Assembly (NCBI GenBank): GCA_002964805.2
Contig: PUDQ02000003.1
Span: 3,906,001 to 3,970,000 of the forward strand
Length of the DNA: 64,000 nucleotides
From: Trametes villosa
Lineage: Eukaryota > Basidiomycota > Agaricomycetes > Polyporales > Polyporaceae
Reading direction: 5' to 3'
Both the position numbers and the translations under genes were made by a program. The notes beneath the pieces are model-generated. The model did not search any database, had not been told where the DNA came from, and saw only the letters and a program-made list of their open reading frames with translations. Shown here piece by piece: positions 8,947 through 41,471 of this stretch (the stretch's first letter is position 1; every line of letters begins with the position of its first letter).

Positions 8947-11900
8947 CTACATACTGTCCTCACTGCTACCGAGTCGACCGAGTGCTTCAACAAACCGTCC
9001 CGAATCCCTGATACTATGCAAGCCGGGGATGGTGCCGCTCTCCTCGACGTCGTCGTCCTCGACGTCGTCATCCTCGACGTTGCCGCCTCCCACTGTCTCG
9101 CCGTCGCCAGAGTGAGCTGCCCAAGGTGGAAGGGGGACGCCCTCGACGAGCGCGTGGTTTCGTCCCTGACGCCGACCATACACAAGGCTTCCGGTGAAAC
9201 CGGGGAGCTGAGAGGCCTTGTGGAGCCACGCGACGACCTTCGCGTTCGTCGCGTTCGCGCGGCGCTGGCGCCGTCGGAGCTCTGCCGCGAGAGAAGGGTC
9301 AGAATCGGAGACTGCCATGATAGCACGGTGGAAGTCGACATGCTCGTCGAGCATGAACGTGAAGACTCGGCGAATTTCGATGTTGAGGCGGTCGATCTCT
9401 TCCCGGGCTCGCTTGACGTCGAAGTACACGCCCATGGCTTCGCGATGGGTGCGATTCGCCCACTTGAGCTGTCGGACATCGCGGCGCGCGTCGCGAAGAA
9501 GGTCGAACTCGCCCAACGAGACCATGTCCATGATCTCGTTCCAGGCTAGCTGCGGGCGCGGGGGCTTCAGCTCGCCCGCGCGGCGATTATACTCGGTGAG
9601 CGCCTTCCGTATGGCCTCGGCGCGGGTCTTCAGGGCCTTCCCGATCTTGTCGCGCATCTTGTACGCTGTCGCAAAACGTTAGTGTTGTTCGCATCGGTTA
9701 TGGGTTCTACATACCGACGCCGCTCATTCCGAGCTTGTCAAGCTCGAAAAGCCGCTGCACGACGAGCCGCTCGAGGTTGTCGAGCGCGGTGCGGTATTTG
9801 CGGCACGCGAGCTCCTGCTTCATCGCGCGATACTCCGGCGTACTCGGTAGCCAGCGGTTGTCGACGTCGAGCAGGTCTTCTAGGCGCCGGACTTCTTCTT
9901 CGGCTTGCTGTACGCGTACTTGCGCAGTACGGTAGTCCCGGCGGATCTTGCCGGTCTCCTTGCCGGTCAGGCCCTTCGTGGCTACGAGGAAGTCGAGCTG
10001 CTTGAAGAGCCCGACCGCCGCGCGGTCCTTGAGCCTACGCGGAGTTAGTAGAGCGTTTGAGAGCGGATATAGCACGTACGTCGCTTGGTCGAGCTTGTCG
10101 AGGGCTTCCATATACTCCAGCTTCTGAACGAGCTCCGGGGGTTCAGCCTTGAGGGACTGCAGGTACGCACGCTCCTCTACGAGGTAGCGCTCGTAGTCGG
10201 CGTCGGACGTCCCCAGCTCGCGCGCGTACACAGCCAACGCGCGCGTGCCCTCGTCGATAATTTGTAGCGCCTGGCGATAGTTGTTGTGCAGGAATTTCCC
10301 TGTACTGAGAGTTAGCGATGATAGCCCGGCGGATGTCCCTATATACGAACCGGACTCCTCGTGCTTCTGCGAACCCCAAAACCCGATCTGCTCCTCGATG
10401 GCTTGATGCCGGTGGAACTCGGTTGCAAGGCGCGTCCCGGACGCCAGACCGTTCATGAGCGAGAAGAACCGCTCGCACCCCTCGAAATCCTCCTTACCTA
10501 CACCTTCCGTGTACATCGGGTGCCAATCGAGTTGGCACGCGCGATTGTGGCTATGGCCGTGGAACGCGGGGACGATGTTCGAAACGCACTGGGCGGCGCG
10601 GGGTCCGATCGAACTGCGGGCCAGGGTCTTGTTGAACTCGCAGCCGATGTCGTACCCGAGCTTCACCTTGAGCTCGGCACCGTAGACTTCGATGATCTTG
10701 TTGACGATCGCGAGGGGATACTTCATGCTGTAAACTGAGTGTAAGCGTATACATCAAAGAGGGGCGTGGCTACTCACAGCTCGCCGCTGCGAATCATGTC
10801 GCATAGCACCAGAACTTGACCGTGACGACAAAGGCACGCGAAGATGCCAGTGTTGCTGAAAAGCGCGAACATCTTCTTACGAACCTCGGGCCCGGCGTTG
10901 CGCCAACGGTCCGCGCATACGGAGTTGGCGTCGATCGGCTCCTCCACGTTCTCAGCGTCCGCGGACTGCTCGCACCCGTCGCTATTAGATACATCCGCCT
11001 GCGTAGGGGGCAGCGAACGCGTGGATGTAGACGTGGATGCAGGCGCGGCCGCCGCGGCTATTGACGAGGGTGGCCCGACAGCGGCGGCGGTTGACGCGGT
11101 TGGCACGGACGATGACGGCGCAGACGAAAGGGGCGCGACGGGAAATTGTGGGGCCGGGACCGCGGCGGACGTAGTCGACGCAGGCGTGGCGCCGGAGGAC
11201 GAGGCGACGACGGGCGAGGCGACGGCGCGCGAGGCGCCGGATGACGAGGCGACGGCGCGCGAGGCGCCGGAGGATGAGGCGATGGGAGGGGAGGCGCCCG
11301 CGGACGTGGCGAACGATGCTGCAGAAGCATCCGCCTCTGCCTGGACGATACTGACACCGGCAGGGATTGGTAGCGAGGGAACTGTCGCAGCCTTAGATTT
11401 CGATTTCTGTGGCGGAATTAGCAACCTATCGGTAGACTGCACAAGAAGCGAGGTAGACTGACCCTCTGGGCGTCGCGTACTTCGTCCTTGAATCGGTCCA
11501 CTTCTCCCGCGGGGATGAACAGGTCCTTGCGCCACGTACGGCCGTCGGGGCGCGTCTCACCGCTACGATAGGCCTCGTCGACGAGCTTGAGGGACGAGTT
11601 CCCGTCCATGCACGCCAAGATGTCGTACTTCAGCGTAGGCTCGCCCTCCAGGCGATAGAGGCAGGGAGGGCATGCATTGCGCATGCGCCATTCGGGAGTA
11701 TCGTGTGCGAGGGCCCGGGCGACCCGCTGGTCGACTTCATGGAGGATGTCGAGGTAGACGTCGAAGGCGATGCTGACCTGCTCGGCGAGTACTGAGCGGT
11801 ACGGTATCTATCGGATTCAGCACATTAGCAGATGTCTAGGCACGGGGACGCCACTCACCAGCTGTAGGCCGCACAGGCCTTGACAGAACGCCTGGACACT

Positions 11901-20325: not shown

Positions 20326-21422
20326 ATGTATACGACCCTCAGCGACGATTCCCAGTACGATCTCCTCCTCCCCTACGACGCCATCAGCCCTCGCATCGCC
20401 GACTCGGGGAGCCTTCTCGAGGAGCTGCTCGGAAACGAGATAGCCATGCCTCCTCCAGAGCATTTTGAGCAGCACGTCGAGAAACATTTCCCCGAATGTA
20501 GCTCGGATACGCATCTTGCCATGCCATCCATCTTTGCTGCTGCATTCGATCTCGACGCGATCGAGTGGGCCGCCGCCCTCTCCGCCCTCCCCTTCCCCCC
20601 ACCCGGATCGCCCTCGTCGTCCTCCGACGACTCGATCCCTACTCCTCTGTCGCCAAACTCCGACACGACGTTCGCCAGTGACTTCTCGCCGTCCCTCACC
20701 CGAGACTGGCTCCTAGACGACCCCTACGACGGAGGGCACAACGTGGGACCTGCTGCGGCCCCCGCACCGATGGCTATCGACGTCCTCGACGGGTTCCAGT
20801 TTTCATTCGAACATGAGCTACAGGTATACCCGTCCCTGAGCACGCCCGCGTCCCCGCTCTCCTACAACGGCTATGAGCAACAGCCGCTGCAGCACGACAC
20901 CCGTGCTGCTGCCGCCGAAGCCCATAGCATGGGACTGAGGATGGAGTCGGCGTCGCCACTTCCTCTCTCTCCATCGTTCGTCTTCCCCCCACAGCCTTCC
21001 CCGACGGTCTTGCCCTCTCCAAAGCGCGCTCCTAACAAGAGGGCGTTGAGCGTCGACTCGGACACCGACGCCCCCGTCCGGAAGAAGCAGGCCCGGCGCA
21101 GGCGCCGCGACGTGCGGCAGTTTGCGTGCCCGGTCCCCGGCTGTGACTTCGGTGAGCCCCCTCCCACCCTATCCCCTCCAAGCGCGACAACGTCTGAGGT
21201 TCGACCTCTGCGGCATCAGTTTCGGGCCGCAACTACAATCTCAAGACACACATCGCGACGCACGAGGGCAAGAAGACGTTCGCGTGCCCGCATCCCGGGT
21301 GCACGAGCGCGCTTGCCCGCCAGCACGACCTCGACCGCCACATCATCAGCAAGCACACGAACCGCGGCTCGCCGCGCAAGGCGGGCGCGAAGAAGGCGAA
21401 GGCGAAGGTGGCGCACAAGTAG
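20326..21422 (+). CDS. C2H2 zinc-finger transcription factor (342 aa)
   Basis: Two exons, 20326-21151 and 21220-21422, are joined in phase 1 over a 68-nt intron. The N-terminal 250 residues are acidic and Ser/Pro-rich, as in activation domains (LPFPPPGSPSSSSDDS). A basic cluster RKKQARRRRRD follows and probably serves as a nuclear signal. Two C2H2 fingers come next: FACPVPGCDFVSGRNYNLKT with HIATH, and FACPHPGCTSALARQHDLDR with HIISKH. The tail is Lys/Ala-rich. The intron splits the first finger between its cysteine and histidine halves. The unspliced reading frame stays open past the intron for a further 300 codons, but that frame loses both fingers and is not the product. Target genes are unknown. 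Confidence 0.88.
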
Positions 21423-23206
21423 CCATCCAAGGATGCGATACCCGGTGCGTGCCTCGCCCCTCCTCCATCCCCATCCCCTCCCCCTCCCTCATTCTCCATC
21501 TCCCTCCTACGAGTATACTGACGCGCCTGCGCGCAGGCACCCGGATTCGCACACAGCAGCCACATACTGTCTCTCGAGTCGCGCGCCCGCTCCGCGCGCG
21601 CAGCGTCATCCCGACGCGCTGCGCGCACGCCTTGGCGCGCGACTCTCGGCGAGGGCGGGTATGCGGCTGATGTGCGGGAGGACGCGCGCGCGTGCGTCGC
21701 CCGCCGGGGACGTCGCTCTGTCGCGCCTGCGCTCCTTTTATATGGGGGCGTGGGAGGCGGGGGCGGCGCCCTGCGGGGGACGTATGCGCGCTGGGAGGGG
21801 TTGGTTTTCTTGGTATGTATGTATGGTATGGTTTGGTATGGGTATGAGTAGGTTTGTGCGTTTTTTGGTTTTGTTATTTTGTTTTGACTGGTCTCTCTCG
21901 TTTTGCTGTGTGCTATGCGTACTTGGCTGCTGTACACGTCTTCTCTCACTCTATCCTCGCTCTCCCCTCTGCTTGAACCACTACCTCCTCACCCTTGCGT
22001 CGTTGTGTACTATATTGGGTCGCGCTCTCTACTGTGTACACGTTGTCTCCTGCATCGCGCTCTCACCCCATCCCGTCAAGCTCTATATCCCCTCTCTCAC
22101 CCCTGTAACTAGTACCTAGTCTTGTTCAACTGTATTCTGTCACCTCGCCGTCCGGCGTCTGCCCGTGTCGTGAATGTGTGCACTGTGTGGTATGCTGGGC
22201 GCCTGCGCGGACCCTCAGGCCTGGAATAATAGCTGGCTATATGCGCGTCGCACTGACGCAACCGAGGTCAGACACCGCGCTGCGCGCTATTGGTATCTAG
22301 TGTAAGTGCGACCTCGTCGACGCGACGCGTATGTTCGCGTCGCGGGCAGGCGGCGGGCAGCAGGCCCGGAAACTTGTCGCGCGATCTACTGAACGCTGAG
22401 CCCAGCACCGCCACAGGCGCACTTTTTTTGCTGTTTTCTCCTCCCATCGCGACGGTGTGTCGATCCCCCGCCCGCGTTTGAGAACCTCACCGGGGCCCAC
22501 GCTCGGAACTCTGTCGACCCTTGGACGCTGGTTAGGGACTAGTTTTCGGACTTTGGGAAAGCCTTGGAACCTAGTTCAAGTTTGGTAGCGCACTCGTGGT
22601 TCTCTCGTCACTGCTCACCTCCGAGTCGTGCCAGTACTTAGGCGCATACTGCCCGAGCCCACCTCGTTTCAAGTTCTCTGATGTTTCCGGCTTTCTGCTC
22701 AAACCCTGAATCCATCCAAAGCTGTTTCTGAACTCTGGGTGTGGACTCCCCGGATGTCGAGCCTCGACACCGTAGAGCTGCGTCTGCTTCCGCTGGCCCA
22801 CGTTCTGTCCGCCGCTCCACGATCGCCCCAGCCGCCTGCCGCGCATGTCTCTGGGTGCTATCTGGGGTCTACGAGTTGGTTGCGGGGCCAGACACTATGT
22901 CTGCGGCGCAGCCCCCACGTCCTGCGATCGAAGGCCTCTCTTGACACGAACGAAAGTCAGGCGACCGGGGACAGAGCCGTGGGAGAGGGAAGAAGATGCT
23001 GCGACGCGCGCTCGAGTTTCCCCTGGGGTGCTCGGGCTGCCATACACGGCTCAGAGAAGGCGTCGCCGCAGAGCTGCTTTTCATAGCGCTGGGTGGGATG
23101 TCCCGGCGGCACCGCCGTCGACCGTCCGGGCATGTTATAAGGACAGTCGCGGTGACTCCCCTCGTTCCTCAGGCTTGTTCTGCACCCCCACGGCGACAGG
23201 CCCACT
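21423..23206. other. Intergenic DNA, no gene seen
   Basis: About 1.8 kb lies between the zinc-finger gene and the next plus-strand gene. The first part has TG-rich runs (21790-21880) fitting a 3' UTR. Open frames on both strands are short or compositionally odd, with no domain. Confidence 0.45.
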
Positions 23207-24473: not shown

Positions 24474-24761
24474 TGTTAAACTCACGGGTGTCGGGCACTT
24501 CTGATGCCCGCAGTCTCCTAGTACTCTGGTCCGGGCTCTATTAGGGCTCGGCGTACTCGGGAGATGGTGGGGCAGTAGTAGAAGGCTGCCCTCACCAGAC
24601 GCGCGGGCTCCGAATACCCGCGCGTCGTACGCGTCTATCTATTACATGATATCTACGCGGTATCTTATCCTAGCGCAACTAGCGCTAGGTACCGTTCGCG
24701 ACATAGCGCAACTAGCGCTATGTCCTGCAATAACCCGTAACGACCGCGGAGGGTCGTTACA
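24474..24761 (-). repeat. 3' LTR of the Gypsy element
   Basis: This 288-bp copy is bounded by TG...CA ends. It contains several perfect palindromic hairpins, for example GACATAGCGC at 24700-24709 pairing with GCGCTATGTC at 24715-24724. It is about 97% identical to 34710-34997. Confidence 0.95.
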
Positions 24762-24775
24762 CTCTCCCCCTCTAG
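24762..24775 (-). promoter_or_regulatory. Polypurine tract for plus-strand priming
   Basis: Read on the minus strand, CTAGAGGGGGAGAG lies directly before the 3' LTR (TGTAACG...). This is the expected position and composition of the primer for plus-strand synthesis. The second copy has the same tract directly before 41184. Confidence 0.85.
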
Positions 24776-25232
24776 ACCCGTTGTACGGGTCTACAATAGA
24801 ATATTATAATAAAAGGAACGACTGCTGATATTCGCAGTCATAGCACTATATGATACAAAGAGTTGCGCATAGTGCGTGCACAACTCATATATACAATGAG
24901 TCAGTGAGCCAAGTAGGCTCACGGGGTGGTCACAGTAGTGCAGTGGGATATATACACGACTGCAGATAGTAGCAGTCATACCACTACACTACCATGGTAT
25001 GGTAGTGTTTTTGTTTTTGGGTTATGGATGCGCGCACCGTGGGGTGCGGCTATGTACATTAGTACCGCAGCTATGGCGGACAAACCGATCAATTTTTGAC
25101 GCAGATCGGTTGCGTTATGCCCGAGGAGACGATAATATCGTCTCCTACAGGGACTGCAAATACTTGCAGTCATACCGTCGTGGTATACGACGAGTGCATG
25201 ACGGTTGCACTCGAAGATTTGTTATTAGACAC
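24776..25232 (-). other. Hairpin-rich 3' untranslated region of the Gypsy element
   Basis: This is non-coding DNA between the extra ORF and the 3' LTR. It consists almost entirely of short inverted repeats. Examples are the arms of ACTGCTGATATTCGCAGT near 24827, TGAGCCAAGTAGGCTCA near 24903, CACTACCAT (24987-24995) with ATGGTAGTG (24999-25007), GAGACGATAATATCGTCTC near 25126 and GACTGCAAATACTTGCAGTC near 25151. The same region in the second copy (about 40712-41183) keeps most of them. Confidence 0.75.
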
Positions 25233-27782
25233 CTACGCGGTGTCGTCGTGGGGTGATGACGGGGTGAGAGGGGAGGACCCCTGCTCACCCGTCGCGTTCT
25301 CGCTCTCGTCGTGCCTGTCGCTAGTAGCGGCAGGCGGTTGGGAAGGCCCGGCGACGGGTGCCTCCCGCACGTCCTCCATCGCGCGAGCGGGGGAGTACGG
25401 CGGAGGTGGGACTCCGTCATCGGGATGGGTACCCGCCACTACGTGTGACGGGGTCGAGGCAATGCTCGATGGTTCGGCGACCGCAGTTATGGCGGTCGCG
25501 GCGGTGGTAGTGGAGGCGTCGGTCATGTCGACGTCGTCGGTGGTAACGGCAGGCGCCTCGGGCGCCTGCGGGGGTGCTGGTGCGGGTGCGGGTGCGGGTG
25601 CAGGTGCGGGCGCGTTGGGGGGCGGTAGTGGGCCGCCTGTGGCGACCGGTCCCAGATCCCGCGAACTGGGCACGACGCCGACGTCGAAGGTCGAGTTCGG
25701 CCCGCCATCCATTTGAGGAAGCAGCGACCGAAGGTCGCGCCCGTTCCGCTCGTTGCGGCACAGTCTCGCGAGCGGCAGGAACCGCTCCGCAGCCGTAGGG
25801 GTAAGGCCGCGCGCCGCAAACCAGCGCGCTAGATGGAACAACGTCGTGCTTGCGACGTCGTTGGGGTAGGGGCCCGGGTGGTAGCTAGTACCTACAGGGT
25901 ACTGCCCCTGCTCTACCACGTAACGGTAGAGCCCCGGCACTGAGAACAGCCAGTGGGCGAGGGTCACCCAGTGCCCTCGCGGTCCCAGTGGCGTGCCGCG
26001 CGGTAGCATCGCTCGAACGGCAACGTGGTATTCCACGCTGCGCGTCGTAGGAAGCCCATTTGGCTCCCGCTCCATCCACTGAGGGATATGGCGTTCATCG
26101 ACGCCATACCAAGCCTGCCACACAGCAGGCGGGTCACTAAAGCTCGGCTGGTTCGGGGCCGGCGCCGTGCGCTGTGCACGCAGCTTCAACTTAACCTCCC
26201 GCCACTCAGCGGGCGTCCGCTTGCGCGAGAGGGTCGACGACGGCGGCGGCAAGTGCGCCGTCGACGCGTGCTCGAGTCCAGGGGGAGTGTTTCCCCGGGA
26301 GTCGGCTCGTTGAACCGCCGCGATCAGCGGCGGCGGCGCCTCGCGGCGCCACGACGACTGTAGCTGGTTAAGACCAGCCACTCCGGTGTACTCCGAGCGG
26401 GAGTTCACCTGACCGATGAGGTCACGGATGCGGTGAGCTGCCTCACCCGTATCACGGCGAGCAGCCATGATGATGTTGTTGGCGTCCGCGACGGACACCG
26501 GCACGTAGTTGTACCAGTGCCCCGCGAGACGCGGGTCCGAATCGGTGGGGTGGGCCAACAGGTGGTACGGCCACCCGGGGACCCTCGCCACATCCGTCGC
26601 TGTTTGCGGCGGAGGTTGCGTGCCAAACGGCGCACCCTGACCCGGAGCATGTGCCGGGCCAGTGTTGCGACGAGCACGACGATATCGGTTTCGAGAGACG
26701 AGTCTCTCAATCCGCCTCTCGTCGATATCGTCGTCCTCGTCGCTCGTCGCGTTCTCCCAGTCCACCATAGGGTGGTCCCGGTCCGCGGATGTCGACGAGG
26801 TCGGCATCGCCGTCGAGTTCGACGGTCCTGCCACATTTGGCGTCGTCATCTGCGACGCTCCAGTCCTCGATGGTCCTGCCCCGCTGGGCAGCAACACGAT
26901 CGGCATCAAGCTGGGCCCAGCGGACAGCGCTGAACTCCTTGATGTCGACGCGAACGACCTATCGTTCGCAGTATCCCTCCTCCGAGGGCTGAGTTCCCTC
27001 GGGTCGCGTCGTCGTTCGTCGCGCGGAGGCGACGCTCTCCTGTGCCGAGCCCGACTGAGCTCAGCCTCCAACTGCGAGCGCACTTCATCGCGCTCGCGCT
27101 CGTACTCGTCGCGCTCCTGGCGAGCGGCCTCGCGCTCGCTCCGGTACCTGTCCCGGATCGACTTCGTCTCGTCGACGAGCTCCTTCATCTTCTGGAGCTT
27201 CGCCTCGAGCTCCGCGATCCGATCGCGGCTCCTCCCCTCCTCCACCCTCTGGTGCTCCTCGAAGTGCCGCCAGAACCGCTGCTGCAGTTCTGACTGGACG
27301 CGCGTCTGCGCGTCCCGGAACGTCGAGTCTGACGCCGCCGAGTTGTAGTGGCGGACAAAGTCCGCGCACACAGCGCAGTTGTCGCTGTGCGCGACCAACA
27401 AATGTTGGCCCGCTACGGGCGCCCAGGTCATGCTCGAGAAGGGCATGAGGGGGATGCCACCAGTCTGTGGCATCGGCGCGCTCGAACTGGGCGCGCTCTG
27501 GAATGCAGGACCCGCTTGATGCGGGAACTGGAAGCCGCCACCATACGGAAATCCGTAGGCGGGCATGCCCTGCGAGAAGGCATGCGGGAACTGCTGGGGG
27601 TGGGTTACCCCCGGCATGGACGAGAACGCGGGAGCTGCCGCTTGTTGCGGCAGCAGAAACTGCGAGGGTTGGGGGAAGGGGATGTTTTGTTGTTGAGGGG
27701 CCGCTGGTTGCGACCCCTGTTGCTCCGAGGCTTGCTGCCCGGAGCCGCTGGCTTGTGCGTTGTCTTGGGGGGCGTCGTTCAT
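25233..27782 (-). CDS. Extra ORF of the Gypsy element, unknown function (849 aa)
   Basis: An uninterrupted frame occupies the place after pol where some retroelements carry env or accessory genes. I recognise no domain and see no signal peptide, membrane segment or zinc knuckle of standard spacing. The N-terminal 150 residues are Gln/Pro-rich. A conserved-looking segment, QHLLVAHSDNCAVCADFVRH, carries a CxxC. A coiled coil of about 120 residues follows (AELEAKLQKMKELVDETKSI, then EAARQERDEYERERDEVRS). The middle is Ser/Arg-rich and disordered. A second globular region (about residues 430-690) includes VPGWPYHLLAHP, ADANNIIMAARRDTG and WVTLAHWLFSVPGLYRYVVE. The end is a PA-repeat and acidic tail. 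The coiled coil followed by a compact region could suggest a gag-like structural protein; that is inference. A second, decayed copy is at 38394-40710. Confidence 0.7.
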   Translation of the reverse strand: MNDAPQDNAQASGSGQQASEQQGSQPAAPQQQNIPFPQPSQFLLPQQAAAPAFSSMPGVTHPQQFPHAFSQGMPAYGFPYGGGFQFPHQAGPAFQSAPSSSAPMPQTGGIPLMPFSSMTWAPVAGQHLLVAHSDNCAVCADFVRHYNSAASDSTFRDAQTRVQSELQQRFWRHFEEHQRVEEGRSRDRIAELEAKLQKMKELVDETKSIRDRYRSEREAARQERDEYERERDEVRSQLEAELSRARHRRASPPRDERRRDPRELSPRRRDTANDRSFASTSRSSALSAGPSLMPIVLLPSGAGPSRTGASQMTTPNVAGPSNSTAMPTSSTSADRDHPMVDWENATSDEDDDIDERRIERLVSRNRYRRARRNTGPAHAPGQGAPFGTQPPPQTATDVARVPGWPYHLLAHPTDSDPRLAGHWYNYVPVSVADANNIIMAARRDTGEAAHRIRDLIGQVNSRSEYTGVAGLNQLQSSWRREAPPPLIAAVQRADSRGNTPPGLEHASTAHLPPPSSTLSRKRTPAEWREVKLKLRAQRTAPAPNQPSFSDPPAVWQAWYGVDERHIPQWMEREPNGLPTTRSVEYHVAVRAMLPRGTPLGPRGHWVTLAHWLFSVPGLYRYVVEQGQYPVGTSYHPGPYPNDVASTTLFHLARWFAARGLTPTAAERFLPLARLCRNERNGRDLRSLLPQMDGGPNSTFDVGVVPSSRDLGPVATGGPLPPPNAPAPAPAPAPAPAPPQAPEAPAVTTDDVDMTDASTTTAATAITAVAEPSSIASTPSHVVAGTHPDDGVPPPPYSPARAMEDVREAPVAGPSQPPAATSDRHDESENATGEQGSSPLTPSSPHDDTA

Positions 27783-28029
27783 GGCGCAGGCGTTGTTGTT
27801 GGTGGTGGTGGTGAGGTGGCAGAGGTCGGTTATGACCCTGCATTCGCGAGGTCGCCGTCTTAAAGCGCCGGCGGAGTCCGAACGCGTCGGTGGCTGCCTC
27901 GCGCACGCGAGCCTGCACGTGACGTACTACTTCACGGTCACGCGCTCTCTGCGCGTGCTCTGTCCTTCACCACGACTACTCACTCGGGTAGTCTTGACCA
28001 CGAAGCGCATGTTGCGCTTCGTACATCCG

Positions 28030-31000
28030 CTAGGTCTTGGCGGATGTTTTCTTGGGCAACGCGCGCCAAGAGGATACGCCCATTAGACGACAATATTCGT
28101 CTAATGCTACGAGCTCCTTGCAGTGCTCGTAAGGTTCCCAGGTGTGGTCCCCCATCGTCCACCGCACGTGGAACTGGCACTTGTTGCCATTCCATTCGTG
28201 GCCGATAATCTCTTCCACCAACCATTCGGTGGAGTCTTCATTGCCGAAGTCGTAATACGACTTCGCTTCACGATGCGGGAATACCGCATCGTCGTTTGGC
28301 TCATAGCGTCGTAATAGCGACACGTGGAACCGAGGGTGTATCCTTCGGTTCCGGAGTTCTTCTGGTAGCTCCAGTACGTAGTTTGACGTACTGGGTATGC
28401 TTTCAATTATAGCATACGGTCCGATGTATTTAGGCACGAGCTTTCGTGCTCGGCCCTTAGGTATCGACAAATTCTTTGTCGATAGGTATACCTTGTCCCC
28501 GACCTCAAAGTCGGGTTCGGCTTGCCTATGCTTATTCGCATAGTGTGTCTGGCGCACTCGCGCCTCGATGATGGCATCATGCGCCATCTCCAGGTTCGCC
28601 TTGGCTCTGAGTGCGAACTCTCGCACTCCTCGAAACGGAGTGTCCGTTCCGATTCCGTTCATAGAATGCGGGAGATACCCGTAGTTCAACTCGAACGGAG
28701 CGAACCCTATGGTAGAACTTACCGCAGAGTTGATAGCGAATTCCGCTATCGGTAGCTTCTCATACCAGTCCAACTGGTCAGGGGCTACCAGTGCACGAAG
28801 TATCTGCGACACTGAGCGTATACTACGCTCAGATAATCCATCCGTCTGTGGATGGAATGACGTGGACATAAGCAGCTTCGCCCCCATAAGGCGATGCAGT
28901 TCCTTCCAGAATTTGGAGGTGAACTTCGAGTCTCTATCAGAGACTATGGAGTACGGTAGCCCGTGTAGACGGACTACTTCCCTGAAGTAGACCAGCGCCA
29001 GTTCTGACGCTGTGTCGGTTGTCTTGATGGGTATGAGGTGTACCATCGAGGTCAACCGACAGACTACAATCCATATGTAGTCGTATCCGTGCGAGGGCGG
29101 AAACGGACCGAAGAAATCCATGGACATAGACGTCCATGGCACCGTAGGTATCGGTAGCGAGTGTAACAGCCCTATAGGGGGCTGTGTACTTATTTTCGTG
29201 GTGTGGCACACGCCGCACGAAATGCAGAACTTGTCTACATCCTTGCGTAACGCGGGCCACCAAAACCACTTGCGCACGTACTCTGACGTGCGCTGAGGTC
29301 CAAGGTGTCCAAGCGCGTTATGCGCTTGGTCTAACACGAGCTCTTGTAGAGCACGTTTTCGATACAGACCACGCGGTATGCATAGTACCTCGTCGCCTTC
29401 ACGGTTCTTGGTGTATATCACACCCTCGCGCATTACGAATGCGCGATGCTGAGTAGGCCGTTCCAGTATTTTCTGGAACGTCGGGTCATTAACATAACCT
29501 GACTTGACGGCTTTCAGAAAGCCGTCGTCTCCTTCTACCCAGACACGCAACGAGGGACCCGCAGATAGCGAGTCCGACAGCGTCACATTGTCGCTGTCCG
29601 TGGTTGCTGCAGTCACCAAGATAGGTGCGTGTGCAGCGTAACGAGCCGATTCTACGACTCGTTCCTCTGTTGGTTCCTGCACGCGTGTAGCGTGCGCGTT
29701 TTCTGTTTCTAGCTGCGCGAGTTTCCGCGCAGATCGACGCAACACTCGAGCTGCGCGTAGCTCGATGAGACGGGAGAAGGGGAGATCATCCCCTTCAGGA
29801 TCTAGCCGCAAGTCGGCATTAACATAGTCGAAATCTTCGGCTAGTTCCTCTATGTCGTCGTGTTCGAAGTAGCGGGACAAACAGTCCGCTACTTTGTTCA
29901 GTTTACCTGGAATATAGGTAATCGTCTTGTCGAACCTCGACAAGAATTCGTACCACCGTATCTGACGGTGGTTAGGACGCTTGAGTCCCTCAAGGAACTC
30001 GAGAGCTCTATGGTCAGTGACTATATTGAGCTTTCGTCCTATGAGCTTGTCCTCCCACTTGAACAAGCCTTCCATGATGGCGAGGGCTTCTTGCTCATAG
30101 GTGCGATACGCCCGTTGTGCGGACGTAAATTTCTTCGACAGGAACCCGGCTGGCCTGCAAGTTTGCCAGTCGGGTCCTTGCCCGTATAACGCTCCGAGTC
30201 CATACACGGACGCATCACAGATCAACCAAATGGGATCTGTGGAAGCCGGATCTATCGGCTTCAGTATGGGCACCTTACACGCGAGTGCTTTGATAGACTC
30301 AAAGCACTTGTCGTGCAGTGCGCGCCATACGAACGGACGGTCGTTATGGACCATGTCCGATAACGGCGATGTGTACGCCGTTACATCTGGCATAAAGTGT
30401 GCCAGATAGTTCACTAGTCCGAGGAACCGCTGCACCTCGTTATACGAGCGAGGTGTCCGCCAGTTCCGGATACGGCTCATCTTGTCCGTATCAGCGTGTA
30501 GTCCCTTGTCATCTATTCGGTGACCGAGGCAATCCAAGTCTTTGGAGTATAAGTCGCACTTGCTGCGGCTTAGGAAAAGCTTCGCCTCTCGAAGCTTTTC
30601 GAACACTATCCTTAAGTGTTCTTCGTGCTCCTCCTTGGAGTCCGAAAATACGAAAATGTCGTCCAAATACACATGGACGAACCTTCCGATACAGTCACGA
30701 AATATGGCTGTCATGAGACGTTGGAACGTGGACGGGGCATTGGTGTCGCCCTGTTGCATGACCTCGCTCACGAACGTCCCGTAAGGCGTCGCGAACGCGG
30801 TCTTCCACACGTCCTCCGCAACTATGCGGATCTGTTCGTAGGCGTCGGACAGATCAATCTTCGAGCGATACTTCGCTCGAGCAACGTCCATCCGGATCTG
30901 GTCTTGATCCGGAAACGGTGTCAGGTCGTGCACCGTGTTCTGGTTTCGTTGTCGCGCATCGAGTACGGTGCGCAGCTTGCCATTCTTCTTGGCAACGCAT

Positions 31001-31550
31001 AGCAGAGGCGCTGCTTGCGTGACCGTTACCGGTCGCCACCAGCCTGCCTTCACATAGCGATTGATTTTCGCTATGAGCTCTGGTTCACCACGTCCGCGCA
31101 ACGTGGGAGATGATAGCGATATTTCTTCGCTTCATCGATGAGCGGGATATGGTGATTGATCTCCCGGAACGGCGGGAGATGCTCCGGCGCAGGACGCATA
31201 ATGTCCTCGGTGGCCGCATACCAGCGGTCACGAAGAGCTTTCAGCTCCTCCTCTTCCTCGTCTATGACGAACCCAGCGTGGGTTCGTCGGATCTGTTCGT
31301 CTTCCCACTGCTCCTTGGCTATCTTGTCCAAGAGCTCATTGATGCCGTATGGGTCCTCGTACCCATACTTGTCCCTTCTAGGACCTCGCGACGAATGCAT
31401 CGTCGGAATGAATTTCTCGCCAATGTTTGGCGGCGAGCTATCTTTGGCTCGCCCTTGGTGTCGTTCAGGAATTCTAACGGTTTCTACACCGTTCCCTCCC
31501 CCTCCTGACGACCCTCCGGACTTGTCGTAACGAGAGTGGGGAGGTTCCAC
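28030..31550 (-). pseudogene. Gypsy pol: reverse transcriptase, RNase H, integrase, chromodomain; one frameshift
   Basis: A first frame, 31550 down to 31071, encodes an acidic linker and the start of the RT region (KYRYHLPRC). The second, 31101 down to 28030, encodes 1023 residues. It continues with YVKAGWWRP, SKIDLSDAYEQI (first catalytic Asp) and FVHVYLDDIFVFSD (the catalytic Asp pair of RT). RNase H shows LICDASVYGLGA, TYEQEALAI and TDHRALEF. Integrase shows the zinc site (HNALGHLG...CISCGVC) and the D,D,E triad in SMSMDFFGPF, IVSDRDSKF and FHPQTDGLSERS. A chromodomain-like end follows (CQFHVRWTMGDHTWEP). A one-base frameshift near 31085-31095 separates the two frames, because sequence between NQ and ELIAKI reads in different frames. 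Confidence 0.9.
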
Positions 31551-31574
31551 TCTTGTGGAACTCGCTACGTTGTC

Positions 31575-34500
31575 CTACTGCTTAGGTTTAGCAGTACCTT
31601 CGAATTGGAATCGAGGAACCCATTTCTTGGGTTCGGGTTTCGCAGTCGTCGAAACCTCAGGATCGAACAACGGCAAACTTTTGCCGTTGATTACTACCGT
31701 ACCTGCACGGAAGTCTAGGATTACTCCATGCTTCCTGCAGAAGGTAGTTCCCAACACGACATCGTACTTATCGATGTCTACTACGTCAAAGTATTGCGTA
31801 GTATTCACAGAGCCCACCTTGAGCTCTGCTTGCGCACCATAATTGATGCGCGTCTTGCTGCCCTTGGTTCCCAATTGCAGCCCTACAGGCTGCGCCAGAT
31901 CGATACGATCTGCGCGACTCAGATACGCCAACTCTGGCGTAATCGAATCGGTCGTGCAGCCCGAGTCGAATAAGGCCAGAGCTGTGACCTTATTGATTGT
32001 AATCTCAGCGCATAGTGTGCGCTGGGCCTGGAGCGTGCGCACAGGTTGCGCCGCGGGATCGTCTATACGACGTATCTTGTTGTCGTATAACCAGGCCTGC
32101 TTGTACCCTCGCGTGGGTGCAACCGCCATGGTGTGTAACCGAAGAGGCTCAGGTTCGGCCTCTTCTAGCGGTGCAATACGCATCGCGATGAAGTATTCAT
32201 CTGCATCTCCCTCTCCAGGAGATGCGTAATGATCCTCGTCAGGATCATACTGAGATCCTTCCAGACCATAGTCTGACAACGGATATTCTCCGTTATCGTC
32301 TGGGCTATCCGCAAGAGCCTCGGGTTCAGGCTCTTGATCCTCGGGACGAGTTGCCGTGTTGTCGTCGGCAACGTCTTGTTGTGTAGACGGCTCGTTGCCG
32401 TCGTCCGACGTGTCGTCGATGACACGCTGAGCGAACATCCGCTGTACTGTAGCGGATTTCTTCCCGTAGTTGGGACATTTCGCGTCGCTCGCGAAGTGGC
32501 CTATTTGACCACAGGAATAGCACTTAAGAGGTGCTTTCTGAGTCTTATCAATCCGCGCAGTTGACGCGGATTGCTGCACCGCGCCAGACTGACGCGGTAC
32601 CGAACCACCTCGCACGTCTGTCGAAGGGCGTTTAAAGCCAGTAGTAGCTTTATGTATCGTAATATTATTACTACGGGAAGCCGAAGCCGTTGGCTTCCTA
32701 AGTACATTACGCACTCCTCGTTGCGGGCGTGCCTCTACCGTCGGCTTAGCACCGGTGTTCGGTATAGTATGTGCTCGCGAAGGTTCGCGAGCTAACTTCC
32801 GAAGCCGCATAGCGCGCGACTTCTGCTCAATATCTTGAGCCACTTGGTACAATTGTGCCAAGTCGTGTTCTTGAGGAGACATACCGTTAACAACGGTAAG
32901 TAGGTACTCGATGTCTTCGGGTAACGCCTCAATGAACTTCCTACGCAATTGGAAGGGCGTAGGCTTCTCCCCACATCCTTTCGGATATGTACAGCAGCTT
33001 CTCATATAAAGCTGCAACCCCTCCGTCACTGGAGCGGTAAATTAGCGAAGCATACTGTTGCTCCGCAAGTAGGTTCAAATCCTTATGGATGAACCTACGA
33101 TAGAGTGCTATAACAGTCTCCTCGAATATCCAGTCGCGCTTATCGCGCGACGGAGACTGTATAGTGTTGTAGAACCACGTAGCGGCATCACCGCTAAGTG
33201 CAGTGCCCAATATTCGGACACGGTCACGGTCCATCCTAGGACCCGTGATCCTCAACGTGTTGAAGTACTCGAGGAGGCCTCGCAGCCATACCTCGAGTGC
33301 ATCGAGATCGTCTTTCCCCTCGTACGTCTTGGGTGGCGCAAGTTTCGCCACCTTCAAGTACGCAGGGGGATCACCCTCTGGAGGTGATCCGACCATCTCA
33401 TCTATCATCCGTACGAGACGGCTGATCGTTACACCATCACGAGGCCCTACTACAGGCCCCGTGTATGCCAGCGGTTCCGTAGTTTCCGCTGGCTGCATAG
33501 GAGGTAATCCTCCGTAATATGCAGACGCTCCCATTGAACGTCGAGGGTGTTTCCAGTCCCATAGTCCAGGCGGCCGTTCTTGACGGTACGCGGGTCCTTG
33601 GGACGCAGACATTGGCTCAGCGGGATAATCGCTGGGCGAGGATGGAATTGGCTGCGCGACATGCGCAGCCCTAGTCGAGCCTTGCGGATTATCGAATGCC
33701 ACGTTCCGAGTAGGAACGGCATTCTGTACATCGCCAGTTCGACGGTTTGATGAGGACGGCGGCAGTTGCGCCGTCGTGTGCGGTGGATCATACAGCCCCG
33801 CACGACTCAGTCGTTCAATCCGGCCAGCGACGATACGCTGGCGAGGATCCAATAGTGCATCCTCTACTTCGCGATCATCCGCGAAGTTCTCCATTTGCGG
33901 ATCAGCAGCTGAGCTGATATGTGTATCTATGGTTGCCCTTGTCATAGGCAACTCGTCGCTTTCATCCTCACCAGCCACGATAGGCTGATGAATGTGGTGC
34001 CCTGCATCGGCATCCTCACTTACCGCTATAGCGCGAGCGGTAAGGTCCTCCTCGTCTTCTTCGTCCATTAGGTCACCTAGGCCTAATTCCGCTAATGCGG
34101 ACTGCAGAGCGAGGTTCGTCTCGTTTTCTGCCTCGAGTATCTGCTTCTGCAGCAGACGGAATCGTTTCTTCGATTCCCGAACTACCATGCGCAACGGCGC
34201 AAGGTTCAGTGCCGGTGCCGCCGACACTGACGAGCTCGCAGCCAACTGCTGCGAGCGTCCCTCACGCAGATCCTGCCAGTCTTGCCCAATGTTGGCAAGA
34301 CTCCGACTGTTAAGCGAGCTCGCAGCGGAGCCCGATCGTCGTGACGGGCCTGCTTGGTCTGAAGCCGGTCGTCCAGCATGCACGCTGGCAGTCGCACGAC
34401 CCCTAGTAGGGTTCGTGGTATCGTCTAAGCCGCCGGATACCACTGATTGTGGTATCGAGGGTCCACCCTCGCCCTCTGTAGATCGAGGGAGTGACGTGGC

Positions 34501-34605
34501 GGGTTGACCCGCGCCGAACTCAGCGCGGGGGGGTTGGTTCGAGGTAGAAGTCGAGGCCCGCGGAGTTCGCGGGTCCGTGGGGTTGTTTGAGCTGTGGTGG
34601 CTCAT
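31575..34605 (-). pseudogene. Gypsy gag-protease with one frameshift
   Basis: The first frame starts at ATG 34605 and encodes 554 residues: a disordered Ser/Pro-rich N-terminus, a helix (ESKKRFRLLQKQILEAENE) and the conserved gag capsid region (KTYEGKDDLDALEVWLRGLL to LYEKLLYISERM). There the frame slips, near 32975-32990. The other frame resumes at PTPFQLRRKFIEALPEDI and includes a zinc knuckle (CYSCGQIGHFASDAKC, with a wider H-to-C spacing than usual) and a retropepsin-like protease with catalytic LALFDSGCTTDSIT and a YDVVLGTTF segment. Gag and protease are therefore one polyprotein broken by a single shift, either mutation or assembly error. Confidence 0.88.
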
Positions 34606-34709
34606 TCTTGCTGGATGCGGATGGGGGTTGCTAGGGGATTAGAGTTCGATGACGTGGTTGCACGTCGAGCCCCAAATCGGGCGATTCTAACACGGTAAGA
34701 GTAAAAAAG

Positions 34710-34997
34710 TGTTAAACTCACGGGTGTCGGGCACATCTGATGCCCGCAGTCTCCAAGTACTCTGGTCCGGGCTCTATTAGGGCTCGGCGTACTCGGGAGA
34801 TGGTGGGGCAGTTGTAGAAGGCTGCCCTCACCAGACGCGCGGGCTCCGAATACCCGCGCGTCGTACGCGTCTATCTACTACATGATATCTACGCGGTATC
34901 TTATCCTAGCGCAATTAGCGCTAGGTACTGATCGCGACATAGCGCAACTAGCGCTATGTCCTACAAGAACCCGTAACGACCGCGGAGGGTCGTTACA
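34710..34997 (-). repeat. 5' LTR of the Gypsy element
   Basis: This 288-bp repeat differs from the 3' LTR at about nine positions. On the minus strand, CTTTTTTACTCTTACCGTG follows it and should contain the primer-binding site, but I could not match it to a tRNA 3' end. Confidence 0.93.
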
Positions 34998-38393: not shown

Positions 38394-40710
38394 ATGACCA
38401 ATTTGCCCGGCGGCAGCTTCCAATTCCCGCAACAAGCGGGTCCTTCGTTCCAGAGCGTGCCCAGTACGAGCACGCCGATGCCACAGACCGGTGGCATCCC
38501 TCCTATTCCCTTCTCGAGCATGACTTGGGCGCCCGTAGCAGGCCAACATCTGTTGGTCGCACACAGCGACAACTGTGCTGTGTGCGTGGACTTCGTCCGC
38601 CACTACAATGCAGCGGCATCAGACTCGACGTTCCGGGACGCGCAGACGCGCGTCCAGTCAGAACTGCAACAGCGGTTCTGGCGGCACTTCGAGGAGCACC
38701 AGAGGGTGGAGGAGGGGAGGAGCCGTGATCGGATCGCGGAGCTCCAGGCGAAGCTCCAGAAGATGAAGGAGCTCGTCGACGAGACGAAGTCGATCCGGGA
38801 CAGATACCGGAGCGAGCGCGAGGCCGCTCGCCAGGAGCGCGACGAGTACGAACGTGAGCGCGACGAAGTGCGCTCGCAGTTGGAGGCTGAGCTCAGTCGG
38901 GCTTGGCACAGGAGGGCATCGCCTTTGCGCGACAAACGACGAGGCGACCCGAGGGAACTCAGTCCTTGGAGGAGGGATAATGTGAACGATAGATCGTTCA
39001 CGTCGACATCAAGGAGCTCAGCGCCGTCCGCTGGGCCCAGCTTGATGCCGATCGTGTCGCTGCCCAGCAGGGCAGGACCATCGAGGACTGGAGTGTCGCA
39101 GATGACAACGCCAAACGTGGCAGGACCGTCAACATTGACGGTGATGCCGACCTCGTCGATATCTGCGGACCGGGACCACCCTATGGTGGACTGGGAGAAC
39201 GCCACAAGCGATGAGGACGACGATATCGACGAGAGGCGGATCGAGAGGGTCACCTCTTGAAACCGATATTGTCGTGCTCGTCGCGACACTGTCCCGGCAC
39301 ACACTCCGGGTCAGGGCGCGCCGTTTGGCACGCAACCTCCGCTGCAACCAGCGACGGATGTGGCGAGGGTCCCCGGGTGGCCGTACCACCTGTTGGCCCT
39401 CCCCACTGATTCGGACCCGCGTCTCGCGGGGCACTGGTACAACTACGTGCCAATGTCCGTTGCGGATGCCAACAACATCATCATGGCTGCTCGCCGTGAT
39501 ACGGGTGAGGCGGCTCACCACATCCGTGACCTTATCGGTCAGGTGAACTTCCGCTCGGAGTACACCGGAGTGGCTGGCCTCAACCAGCTACAGTCGTCGT
39601 GGTGTCGCGAGGCGCCACCGCCGCTGATTGCGGTGGCTCAACGAGCCGACTCCCGGGGAAACACTCCCCCTGGACTCAAGCACGTGTCGATGGCGCACTT
39701 GCCGCCGCCGTCGTCAACCCTCTCGTGCAAGCAGACACCCGCTGAGTGGCGGGAGGTCAAACTGAAGCTGCGTGCACAATGCACGGCGCCGGCCCCAAAC
39801 CAGCCGAGCTTCAGTGAACCGCCTGCTGTGTGGCAGGCCTGGTACGGCGTTGACGAACGCCATATCCCTCTGTGGATGGAGCGGGAGCCAAGTGGGCTTC
39901 CTACAACGCGCAGCGTGGAGTACCACGTTGCTGTTCGAGCGATGCTGCCGTGCAGCACGCCACTGGGCGCGCAAGGGCACTGGGTGACCCTCGCCCACTG
40001 GCTCTTCTCAGTGCCGGGGCTCTACCGCTATGTGGTAGAGCAGGGGCCGTACCCAATAGGTGCGAGCTACCACCCGGGGCCCTACCCCAACCACGTCGCC
40101 AGCATGACGTTGTTCCACCTGGCGCGCTGGTTCACGGCGCGCGGCCTGACACCGACGGCTGCTGAGCGGTTCTTACCGCTCGCGAGACTGTGCCGCAATG
40201 AGCGGAATGGTCGCGACCTCCGGTCGCTGTTCCCTCACATGGACGGCGGCCCAAACTCGACCGCCGACGTCGGCGTCGTGCCCAGTTCGCGGGATCTGGG
40301 ACCGGTTGCTACAGGTGGCCCACTACCACCACCCAACGCGCCCGCACCCGCACCCGCACCCGCACCCGCACCCCCCGCAGGCGCCCGAGGCGTCTGCCAC
40401 CATCTCCGACGACGTCAAGATGACCGACGCGTCCACCACCACCATCGCGACCGCCATAACTGCGGTCGCTGAGCCGTCAAGCATCGCCTCAACCCCGTCA
40501 CACATCGTGGCGGGTCCCTAACCCGACGATGGAGTGCCTCCTCCGCCGTACTCCCCCGCTCGTGCGATGGAGGACGTGCATGAGGAACCCATCGCCGGAC
40601 CATCACAACCACCTGCCGCTGCTAGCAACAGGCACGACAAGAGCGAGACTGCGACAGGTGAGCAGGGGTCCTCCCCTCTCACTCCGTCTTCACCCAACGC
40701 CGACACCTCA
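38394..40710 (+). pseudogene. Decayed copy of the Gypsy extra ORF
   Basis: The first frame (38394-39260) covers the CxxC segment (NCAVCVDFVRH), the coiled coil and the Ser-rich region. It then shifts near 39250, resumes at about 39360 (VARVPGWPYHLLALP onward), and shifts again near 40370 in the PA-repeat. A stop follows GPS/VAGP near 40520. Between these breaks the protein is very close to 25233-27782, with conservative changes in the coiled coil and the WVTLAHWLFSVPGLYRYVVE segment. Confidence 0.82.
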
Positions 40711-40711
40711 T

Positions 40712-41183
40712 AGGTGTCCAAACATGAGCTTCGAGTGCAACCATCATGCACTCGTCGTATACCACGATGGTATGACTGCAAATATTTGCAATCCCTGCAG
40801 GAGACAATATTATCGTCTCCTCAGGCATAACGCAACTGATCTGCGTCAAAAATTGATCGGTTCGTCTGCCATAGCTGCGGTACTAATGTACATAGCCGCA
40901 CCACACGGTGCGTGCACCCATACAACCAAAAACAAAAACATTACCATACTATGGTAGTGTAATGGTATGACTGCTACTATTCACAGTCGTGTATATACCC
41001 CACTGCACTACTATGACCACACTGTGAGCCTAGTTGGCTCACTAACTCATTGTATATATGAGTTGCGCACACACTATGTGCAACTCTTTGTATCATATAG
41101 TGCTATGACTGCGAATATCAGCAGTCGTTCCTTTTACTATATTATTCTATTATAGACCCGTACACGGGTCTAGAGGGGGAGAG
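40712..41183 (+). other. Hairpin-rich 3' region of the second Gypsy copy
   Basis: This is the counterpart of 24762-25232, with the same series of inverted repeats. One stem is CATTAC (40939-40944) with GTAATG (40959-40964), where the first copy has CACTAC with GTAGTG, so both arms changed together. The polypurine tract ends at 41183. Confidence 0.75.
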
Positions 41184-41471
41184 TGTAATGACCCTCTGCG
41201 GTCGTTACGGGTTCTTGTAGGACCTAGCGCTAGTTGCGCTAGGTCGCGGGCATTACCTAGCGCTAGTTGCGCTAGGATTAGATACCGCATAGATATCATG
41301 TATTAATTAGACGCGTACGACGCGTGGGTATTTGGAGCCCGCGCGTCTGGTGTGGGCAGCCGTCTACAACTGCCCCACCATCTCCCGAGTACGCCGAGCC
41401 CTAATAGAGCCCGTACCAGAGTACTAGGAGACTGCGGGCATCAGAAGTGCCCGACACCCGTGAGTTTAACA
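41184..41471 (+). repeat. 3' LTR of the second Gypsy copy
   Basis: This LTR is 288 bp, TGTAATGACC to GAGTTTAACA, the same length as the two LTRs of the first copy but more diverged. It contains GACCTAGCGC (41221-41230) pairing with GCGCTAGGTC (41236-41245). The first copy has GACATAGCGC/GCGCTATGTC at the same place. Confidence 0.93.

Follow-up and report, generated by a model that had tools for sequence, protein, structure and literature searches.

A Gypsy retrotransposon of Trametes villosa densely set with short perfect hairpins

Genomic context and organization of the element

The window analysed here is a 64,000-nucleotide stretch of the Trametes villosa genome (assembly GCA_002964805.2, contig PUDQ02000003.1, positions 3,906,001 to 3,970,000; all coordinates below are window positions), taken from an assembly of 46.7 Mb in 140 contigs. 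It contains a Gypsy long terminal repeat (LTR) retrotransposon, read from the minus strand, in which LTRs and genes alike are crowded with short perfect inverted repeats. A preliminary description of this DNA had called the element saturated with perfect hairpins, and stem counts, codon shuffles and folding bear this out more strongly than was claimed. The parts of the element are as follows (ORF, open reading frame; RT, reverse transcriptase).

24474..34997, minus strand: Gypsy LTR retrotransposon, 10.5 kb, with a 288-bp LTR pair (97% identical)
34710..34997, minus strand: 5' LTR, 288 bp, its outer end a 9-bp hairpin
34606..34709, minus strand: 5' leader, with no stem of 7 bp or more, at the 0.2 percentile of pairing among equal-length windows
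34556..34655, minus strand: weakly paired zone (predicted pairing) around the gag ATG
32941..34605, minus strand: gag-like ORF, ATG start, 554 amino acids, no Pfam match, gag by position only
31575..33029, minus strand: ORF2, 484 amino acids, with a CCHC zinc knuckle and an aspartyl-protease-like region (protease matches below the Pfam cut-off)
31071..31550, minus strand: ORF3, 159 amino acids, no Pfam match
28030..31101, minus strand: pol, with RT, RNase H, integrase H2C2, rve (below cut-off) and SH3_Tf2-1
27733..27832, minus strand: open zone around the ATG of the extra ORF, within the longest hairpin-free gap (27655-27938)
25233..27782, minus strand: extra ORF downstream of pol, ATG start, 849 amino acids, no Pfam match
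24474..24761, minus strand: 3' LTR, 288 bp, six perfect stems of at least 6 bp
28000..28022: example hairpin, 10-bp perfect stem, 3-nt loop
28462..28484: example hairpin, 10-bp AT-rich perfect stem, 3-nt loop

The two LTRs start with TG and finish with CA, as expected of Ty3/Gypsy elements, differ at 9 positions and share an identical set of six hairpins. No matching bases (target-site duplication) were found immediately outside both LTRs of the window copy, and in the LTR no stretch of 8-12 nt is exactly complementary to the first internal bases (a check for self-priming; a tRNA match was not searched for). The pol domains follow the order RVT_1 (residues 37-196), RNase H (288-390), H2C2 (583-637), rve (657-750, below the cut-off) and SH3_Tf2-1 (868-933), and the RT open frame measures 1033 amino acids in the window copy and 1181 in many other copies. 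The closest named pol proteins come from polypores (75% identical in Trametes sanguinea and at most 60% in T. versicolor, under the names given by the source), and no relative was found among viral contigs. The open zone around its ATG suggests that the extra ORF is translated from its own start.

Among the matches listed, the genome carries at least about 20 long copies of the element at 96-98% identity, plus fragments, together with a sister family about 72% identical (loci L039, L040 and L070; 69% over aligned pol) and a more distant relative at 68% (L071). One copy at a contig end (L041, G000:C140:775958-780059) differs from the window copy at 8 of 4686 bases, and the other 27 copies compared differ from it by about 2-3.5%; the near-identity of the contig-end copy could reflect recent transposition, duplication or an assembly duplicate.

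Hairpin content and folding

All 13 hairpins named in the preliminary description were located, with stems of 7-10 bp, and only details had to be amended: at 28245-28265 the 10-bp stem encloses a loop of 1 nt, and the hairpin given as 32230-32247 is in fact 8 bp long and spans 32229-32248. Counting perfect stems with loops of 3-11 nt, the element accounts for 198 of the 362 stems of at least 6 bp in the window, 120 of the 175 of at least 7 bp, and 70 of the 97 of at least 8 bp. For each ORF we generated 200 dinucleotide shuffles and 200 synonymous-codon shuffles (protein and codon usage kept). This codon-preserving control, which the preliminary description had proposed, abolished the excess in all five ORFs, and dinucleotide shuffling did likewise: stems of at least 7 bp numbered 42 in pol versus a synonymous-shuffle mean of 2.47 (maximum 7), 15 in the gag-like ORF versus 1.12 (maximum 4), 22 in ORF2 versus 1.47 (maximum 4), 4 in ORF3 versus 0.43 (maximum 3), and 18 in the extra ORF versus 3.30 (maximum 9).

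Sense-strand folding z-scores ranged from -3.4 to -10.5 in all 18 of the 300-nt windows starting inside the element and fell to about -1 to 0 in the neighbouring ones beyond the LTRs. Over 350-nt fragments, the folding excess of the element averaged 30.6% in sense (51 fragments, range 10 to 57%) and 25.9% in antisense, compared with -1.5, -0.9 and 1.9% for three stretches flanking it; ten other RT loci gave 0.2 to 9.8%. Measured over synonymous shuffles, it amounted to 35.9% in pol, 31.5% in gag, 36.9% in ORF2 and 18.1% in the extra ORF.

A further, inverted fragment of the same family lies nearby and is still hairpin-rich (folding excess 23.4%, 8 fragments):

38412..41471, plus strand: second fragment of the element's family, 91% identical, running from the extra ORF to the LTR

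That neighbouring genes lack the signal, as was first supposed, holds for folding energy in the stretches sampled; it does not hold for the stem excess at the KDZ transposase, nor for a few windows with strong z-scores. The KDZ transposase region (9045-10677) has 9 stems of at least 7 bp, its ORF holding 6 versus 1.4 in synonymous shuffles (maximum 3), with no folding excess. In a 597-amino-acid ORF without Pfam match (20326-22119), coding-strand folding reached z = -3.9 and -4.8 (plus-strand windows at 20401 and 21601), and a 10-bp stem lies in the same region at 21596-21626. A few other windows outside the element had z-scores of -2 to -3 on one strand.

Architecture of the hairpins

The enrichment of stems of at least 8 bp depends steeply on loop length, being 71-96-fold for loops of 3-8 nt, 32-fold at 9-11 nt, about fourfold at 12-25 nt, 2.5-fold at 26-50 nt and near one beyond 100 nt. 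These are thus strictly local structures, with loops of less than about 12 nt. Longer stems are AT-richer (Spearman rho = -0.24, p = 0.009, n = 113; +0.04 in shuffles), as if the energy of each hairpin were capped near -15 kcal/mol. Perfect 8-bp stems show an enrichment of about 65-fold (99 versus 1.53), compared with no more than about sixfold for stems that contain a single internal mismatch (93 versus 15.5).

Hairpins are spaced more irregularly than at random (coefficient of variation 1.18 versus 0.99) and no regular spacing was found, which speaks mildly against packaging on a regular lattice. Four-base loops on stems of at least 6 bp numbered 22 and included one GNRA and no UNCG motif. 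In sense, the loops are A-rich (35% A, 24% T), their first base being A in 49 cases and T in 18.

Synonymous codons as the source of the stems

In pol, synonymous choice could form an 8-bp stem at 235 sites, i.e. 76.6 per kb, which is ordinary beside the 63-87 per kb of eight other RT elements. What sets pol apart is how often this potential is realised: 37 of the 235 sites carry the stem, versus 0-0.8% in those eight elements and 16 of 212 in L039. The hairpin load of pol is thus carried by silent choices, its stems arising through the use of particular synonymous codons. Realised fractions in the other ORFs were 9/245 (gag), 10/149 (ORF2) and 10/311 (extra ORF), and five ORFs elsewhere in the window gave 0-2.2%.

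Distribution among other reverse-transcriptase loci

Thirty other RT loci, the best-scoring of 150 listed matches, served as controls; at least ten of them (L027, L030-L038) look like one family, so that the independent control loci number fewer than 30. In 28 of the 30, the count of stems of at least 7 bp lay within the range of 40 shuffles. The exceptions, L011 and L021, show a roughly fourfold excess, and in each most of the stems cluster towards one end (7 fall in the open frame of L011, versus 2.2, maximum 5); part of the hairpin-rich end of L021 resembles the LTR of the element's own family.

These controls bear on the most trivial explanation, namely that base composition, codon usage or protein repeats create the stems. 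Parts of the element are indeed lower in GC than the sequence to its left; the excess nevertheless disappears under dinucleotide and synonymous shuffling in every ORF tested and is absent from 28 of the 30 other RT loci, which refutes such an artefact and leaves it a practically negligible probability.

Some side observations concern the controls themselves. Most of loci L009-L023 have a mild folding excess over synonymous shuffles (2 to 10%), and little or none was seen in L024, L028 and L029 (which look LINE-like; -1 to 2%) or in the family of L027 and L030-L038 (-4 to 2%). The hairpin-rich end of L011 (positions 200-538; G000:C14:788306-788644) is a 338-bp many-copy repeat, often found as inverted pairs about 2.5 kb apart and resembling a DNA transposon's terminal inverted repeat. 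This repeat packs five 8-10 bp stems into about 150 nt, and no DNA similarity to the Gypsy element was found in it.

The preliminary description had expected an excess confined to one family. This was not borne out: the sister family in the same genome also has hairpins, mostly at other positions, and likewise shows a strong folding excess (25.8% in L039, 23.5% in L040, 25.0% in L070). Excluding stems that touch gaps, 42 aligned stems of at least 7 bp could be compared between 27800 and 31101, and of these L039 has only 3 completely intact and L040 has none. In L071, at 68% identity, we counted one stem versus 1.07 expected, with a folding excess of 7.7%. The proposed comparison with related copies in the genome therefore came out as an excess in the sister family too and counts within shuffles in 28 of the 30 other RT loci.

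Sequence variation between copies

For the comparison of copies we used 27 others, leaving out the window copy and the near-identical L041; stems were defined in the window copy, and sites with fewer than 12 letters were excluded from the variant counts. Third-position variants shared by at least two copies occur at 8 of 289 stem sites (2.8%), as against 18 of 103 loop sites (17.5%) and 115 of 1049 sites elsewhere (11.0%; stem versus elsewhere, p = 3e-6). Single-copy variants at third positions, which we read as mostly later decay, are distributed more evenly (18/289 in stems, 9/103 in loops, 99/1049 elsewhere; p = 0.10). Shared variants also follow the pairing predicted for the window copy, rising from 31/655 at strongly paired sites through 45/422 to 65/364 at weakly paired ones, and stems taken from another copy (L044) show the same depletion (stem 19/1002, loop 24/380, elsewhere 150/3588).

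The sister family provides a replicate. At third positions, L039 and L040 differ at 11 of 140 sites in stems of at least 6 bp, versus 12 of 59 in loops and 158 of 834 elsewhere (stems against loops and elsewhere pooled, p = 7e-4); with stems of at least 7 bp the figures are 6/80, 3/29 and 172/924 (p = 0.013). The constraint on nucleic-acid structure in coding DNA that had been proposed from the outset is thus supported, as shuffles erase the signal and the third positions of stems are depleted of shared variants in this family and of L039-L040 differences in the sister family.

The window copy and L041 together show fixed differences from the remaining copies at 5 of 1004 stem sites and 49 of 3589 sites outside stems; all five stem differences are mismatches in the window copy, and we read them as decay of that copy. 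As a side observation, C to T and G to A dominate the single-copy changes in L043-L069 (194 of 290), a bias that deamination of cytosines following insertion would produce.

Such comparisons also speak to a mutational origin, in which template switching during reverse transcription, or correction guided by the hairpin, would perfect near-palindromes with no selection on structure. The far greater enrichment of perfect over one-mismatch stems would suit this idea, as would the location of the trait in a reverse-transcribed element, the occasional stem (1 of 42 here, 2 of 12 in L039) in which one arm has three or four changes and its partner none, and the 2 of 49 single-copy stem variants found in a re-paired state. 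Rewriting of one arm, however, predicts arm asymmetry well above chance, and over the 42 stems compared with the 69%-identical L039 the arm differences are more even than at random places (sum(d5-d3)^2/sum(d5+d3) of 0.37 versus 0.62, standard deviation 0.14), a result that opposes template switching; the reciprocal tests lie at chance (0.72 versus 0.64 and 0.65 versus 0.63, on 12 and 9 stems). Correction of either arm predicts compensated pairs, and none of the 13 shared stem variants is compensated. The ordinary stem potential of the pol protein and the 28 of 30 other RT loci without stem excess also argue against a mutational cause. Selection is favoured over template switching because the shared stem variants all lack compensation and both arms carry changes; we reject the latter, raised in the preliminary description, as the main cause and regard a mutational process of any of these kinds as very unlikely.

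Strand preference and translation starts

Of 42 windows of 250 nt in the element, 28 fold better in sense than in antisense (p = 0.025), as do 13 of 17 in L070 (p = 0.007). Predicted pairing is lowest at the leader and around the two ATG starts: the leader lies at the 0.2 percentile, the gag ATG at the 0.7 percentile (1.5 among GC-matched windows) and the ATG of the extra ORF at the 0.1 percentile, whereas the surroundings of arbitrary GTG/TTG frame starts fall at the 23rd and 41st. The energy cap, moreover, would suit an RNA that is translated. From the sense-over-antisense folding, the weak pairing at the leader and ATG starts, and the energy cap, we consider that the target of selection is probably RNA. 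Selection on DNA is rather doubtful, and what is left falls to mutation and to causes not considered.

Interpretation

The explanation that we tentatively prefer is that hairpins along the LTRs and genes are kept by selection on the folded RNA of the element, and that they would shield this RNA from RNA interference or decay. We infer two steps here, namely that the transcript, rather than a DNA form, is the selected molecule, and that shielding is the benefit. The messenger and genomic RNA would form 6-11 bp hairpins at intervals of a few tens of bases, each too short to resemble long double-stranded RNA and weak enough for ribosomes to pass, and jointly the hairpins would reduce the single-stranded RNA exposed to small-RNA guides, antisense RNA and nucleases. 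The identity of the paired bases would matter little, so the set of hairpins could turn over between sister families. We prefer shielding because the genome has matches to RdRP (RNA-dependent RNA polymerase), Piwi and RNase III families and because escape of structured genomes from small-RNA control has been suggested (PMC3950689), in a source that itself calls the evidence not entirely consistent.

A number of observations weigh against this explanation. Non-CpG single-copy variants (all positions) are also rarer in stems (17/688 versus 135/2956), and part of the stem depletion may therefore not reflect selection in propagating copies. Between L039 and L040, predicted pairing probability fails to distinguish slowly from rapidly changing sites (60/503 strongly versus 18/172 weakly paired, p = 0.68). 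Given the uneven spread of the hairpins, shielding would be patchy. Sense folding is not above antisense in L040 (p = 0.68), nor in 120-nt windows of the element, where the z-scores are alike (-3.33 and -3.04, p = 0.37); isolated hairpins are equally stable on both strands, and the windows at the gag start and the leader, weakly paired as they are, remain more stable than shuffled versions of themselves (z = -2.3 and -1.4). G-U pairs are tolerated in RNA but have hardly any advantage over A-C: mismatches at stem ends comprise 49 G-T and 61 A-C, the ratio predicted by base composition, internal ones 35 and 24 in the element, 11 and 13 in L070, and 4 and 3 in L040, and shared stem variants lead to 7 G-U and 6 A-C. 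Sites paired only in sense and only in antisense vary alike (6/41 and 6/47).

Several of these points would be expected if selection acted on a DNA form, i.e. on single-stranded cDNA during reverse transcription or on cruciforms in the integrated copy, in which only Watson-Crick pairs count. The lack of a clear preference for G-U, the antisense folding that is nearly as strong as sense (25.9 and 30.6%), and the like variation of sense-only and antisense-only sites all agree with it. The strand difference in the element and in L070 argues the other way, and the minimum of pairing at the leader and two ATG starts suggests that RNA folding matters at least there; we hold this alternative to be quite unlikely.

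The nearest rival to shielding remains within RNA: the hairpins may have been selected for compaction or packaging, either as stem-loops bound by Gag/nucleocapsid or as a means of making the RNA compact for virus-like particles. They do span the whole element, LTRs included, ORF2 encodes a zinc knuckle, and the selection evidence from copy variation applies equally. Packaging is less easily squared with the irregular spacing, with loops that are free of constraint (18 of 103 third positions vary), and with the absence of enrichment, beyond about 100 nt, of medium- and long-range stems that would also compact the RNA; on this balance we judge it unlikely, if still worth entertaining.

To return to shielding, a broader proposition can be put forward with more reserve: in this LTR lineage the whole RNA genome might be a string of short hairpins, held stem by stem through selection on synonymous sites, re-evolved as different sets in sister families and serving as a structural defence against silencing, with a folding excess above the highest value in the viral survey discussed below. 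In the open literature searched, no title or opening of an abstract among the papers listed describes hairpin-saturated coding sequence in a retrotransposon. If the proposition is right, a transposon can be selected for the shape of its RNA over more than 100 separate short stems while its protein remains unremarkable, and the synonymous sites of mobile elements can depart widely from neutrality, so that dating copies by silent divergence would be misled. It would also offer a natural system in which to ask what global RNA folding achieves beyond the RNA viruses of vertebrates, here in a fungus equipped with genes for RNA interference. Copies within one genome can also be used as a population sample: variants shared by propagating lineages avoid stems, and single-copy changes do so much less.

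Comparison with known systems

In its protein-coding plan the element resembles Ty3/Gypsy retrotransposons with a Tf2-1-like SH3 domain (LTRs, zinc knuckle, protease-like region, RT, RNase H, integrase and SH3_Tf2-1), and it departs from them by the 849-amino-acid ORF without Pfam match and by a hairpin load that 28 of the 30 other RT loci lack. Structure has been probed by SHAPE (selective 2'-hydroxyl acylation analysed by primer extension) in the genomic RNA of the yeast LTR retrotransposons Ty1 and Ty3, where well-folded regions are dispersed and much of the Ty3 core lies near the RT-coding part (PMC11381356). Unlike the present case, the folded core of Ty3 makes up about a fifth of the RNA, and neither saturation with perfect hairpins nor synonymous selection on stems is described in the parts of that account drawn on here.

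The closest known kind is the genome-scale ordered RNA structure (GORS) of RNA viruses, characterized in PMC7642675 by a folding excess of coding sequence over shuffles, by many consecutive stem-loops and by positions poorly conserved between relatives. Viral values given there are 7.5-10.7% for HCV (hepatitis C virus) and about 15% for SARS-CoV-2, the highest recorded being 23.4%. Like GORS, the element exceeds order-shuffled controls along most of its length (computed mean 30.6%), and it shares with its sister family the folding excess and not the stem positions (3 of 42 kept in L039 and 0 of 42 in L040). Unlike the viruses, the carrier is an integrated fungal LTR retrotransposon rather than a persistent positive-strand RNA virus, its stems are short, perfect and strictly local, and its excess is larger, a numerical comparison that is approximate because the shuffle and fragment settings are close and not identical. 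By analogy, we would describe the element as working like GORS rather than as a catalogued member of that class.

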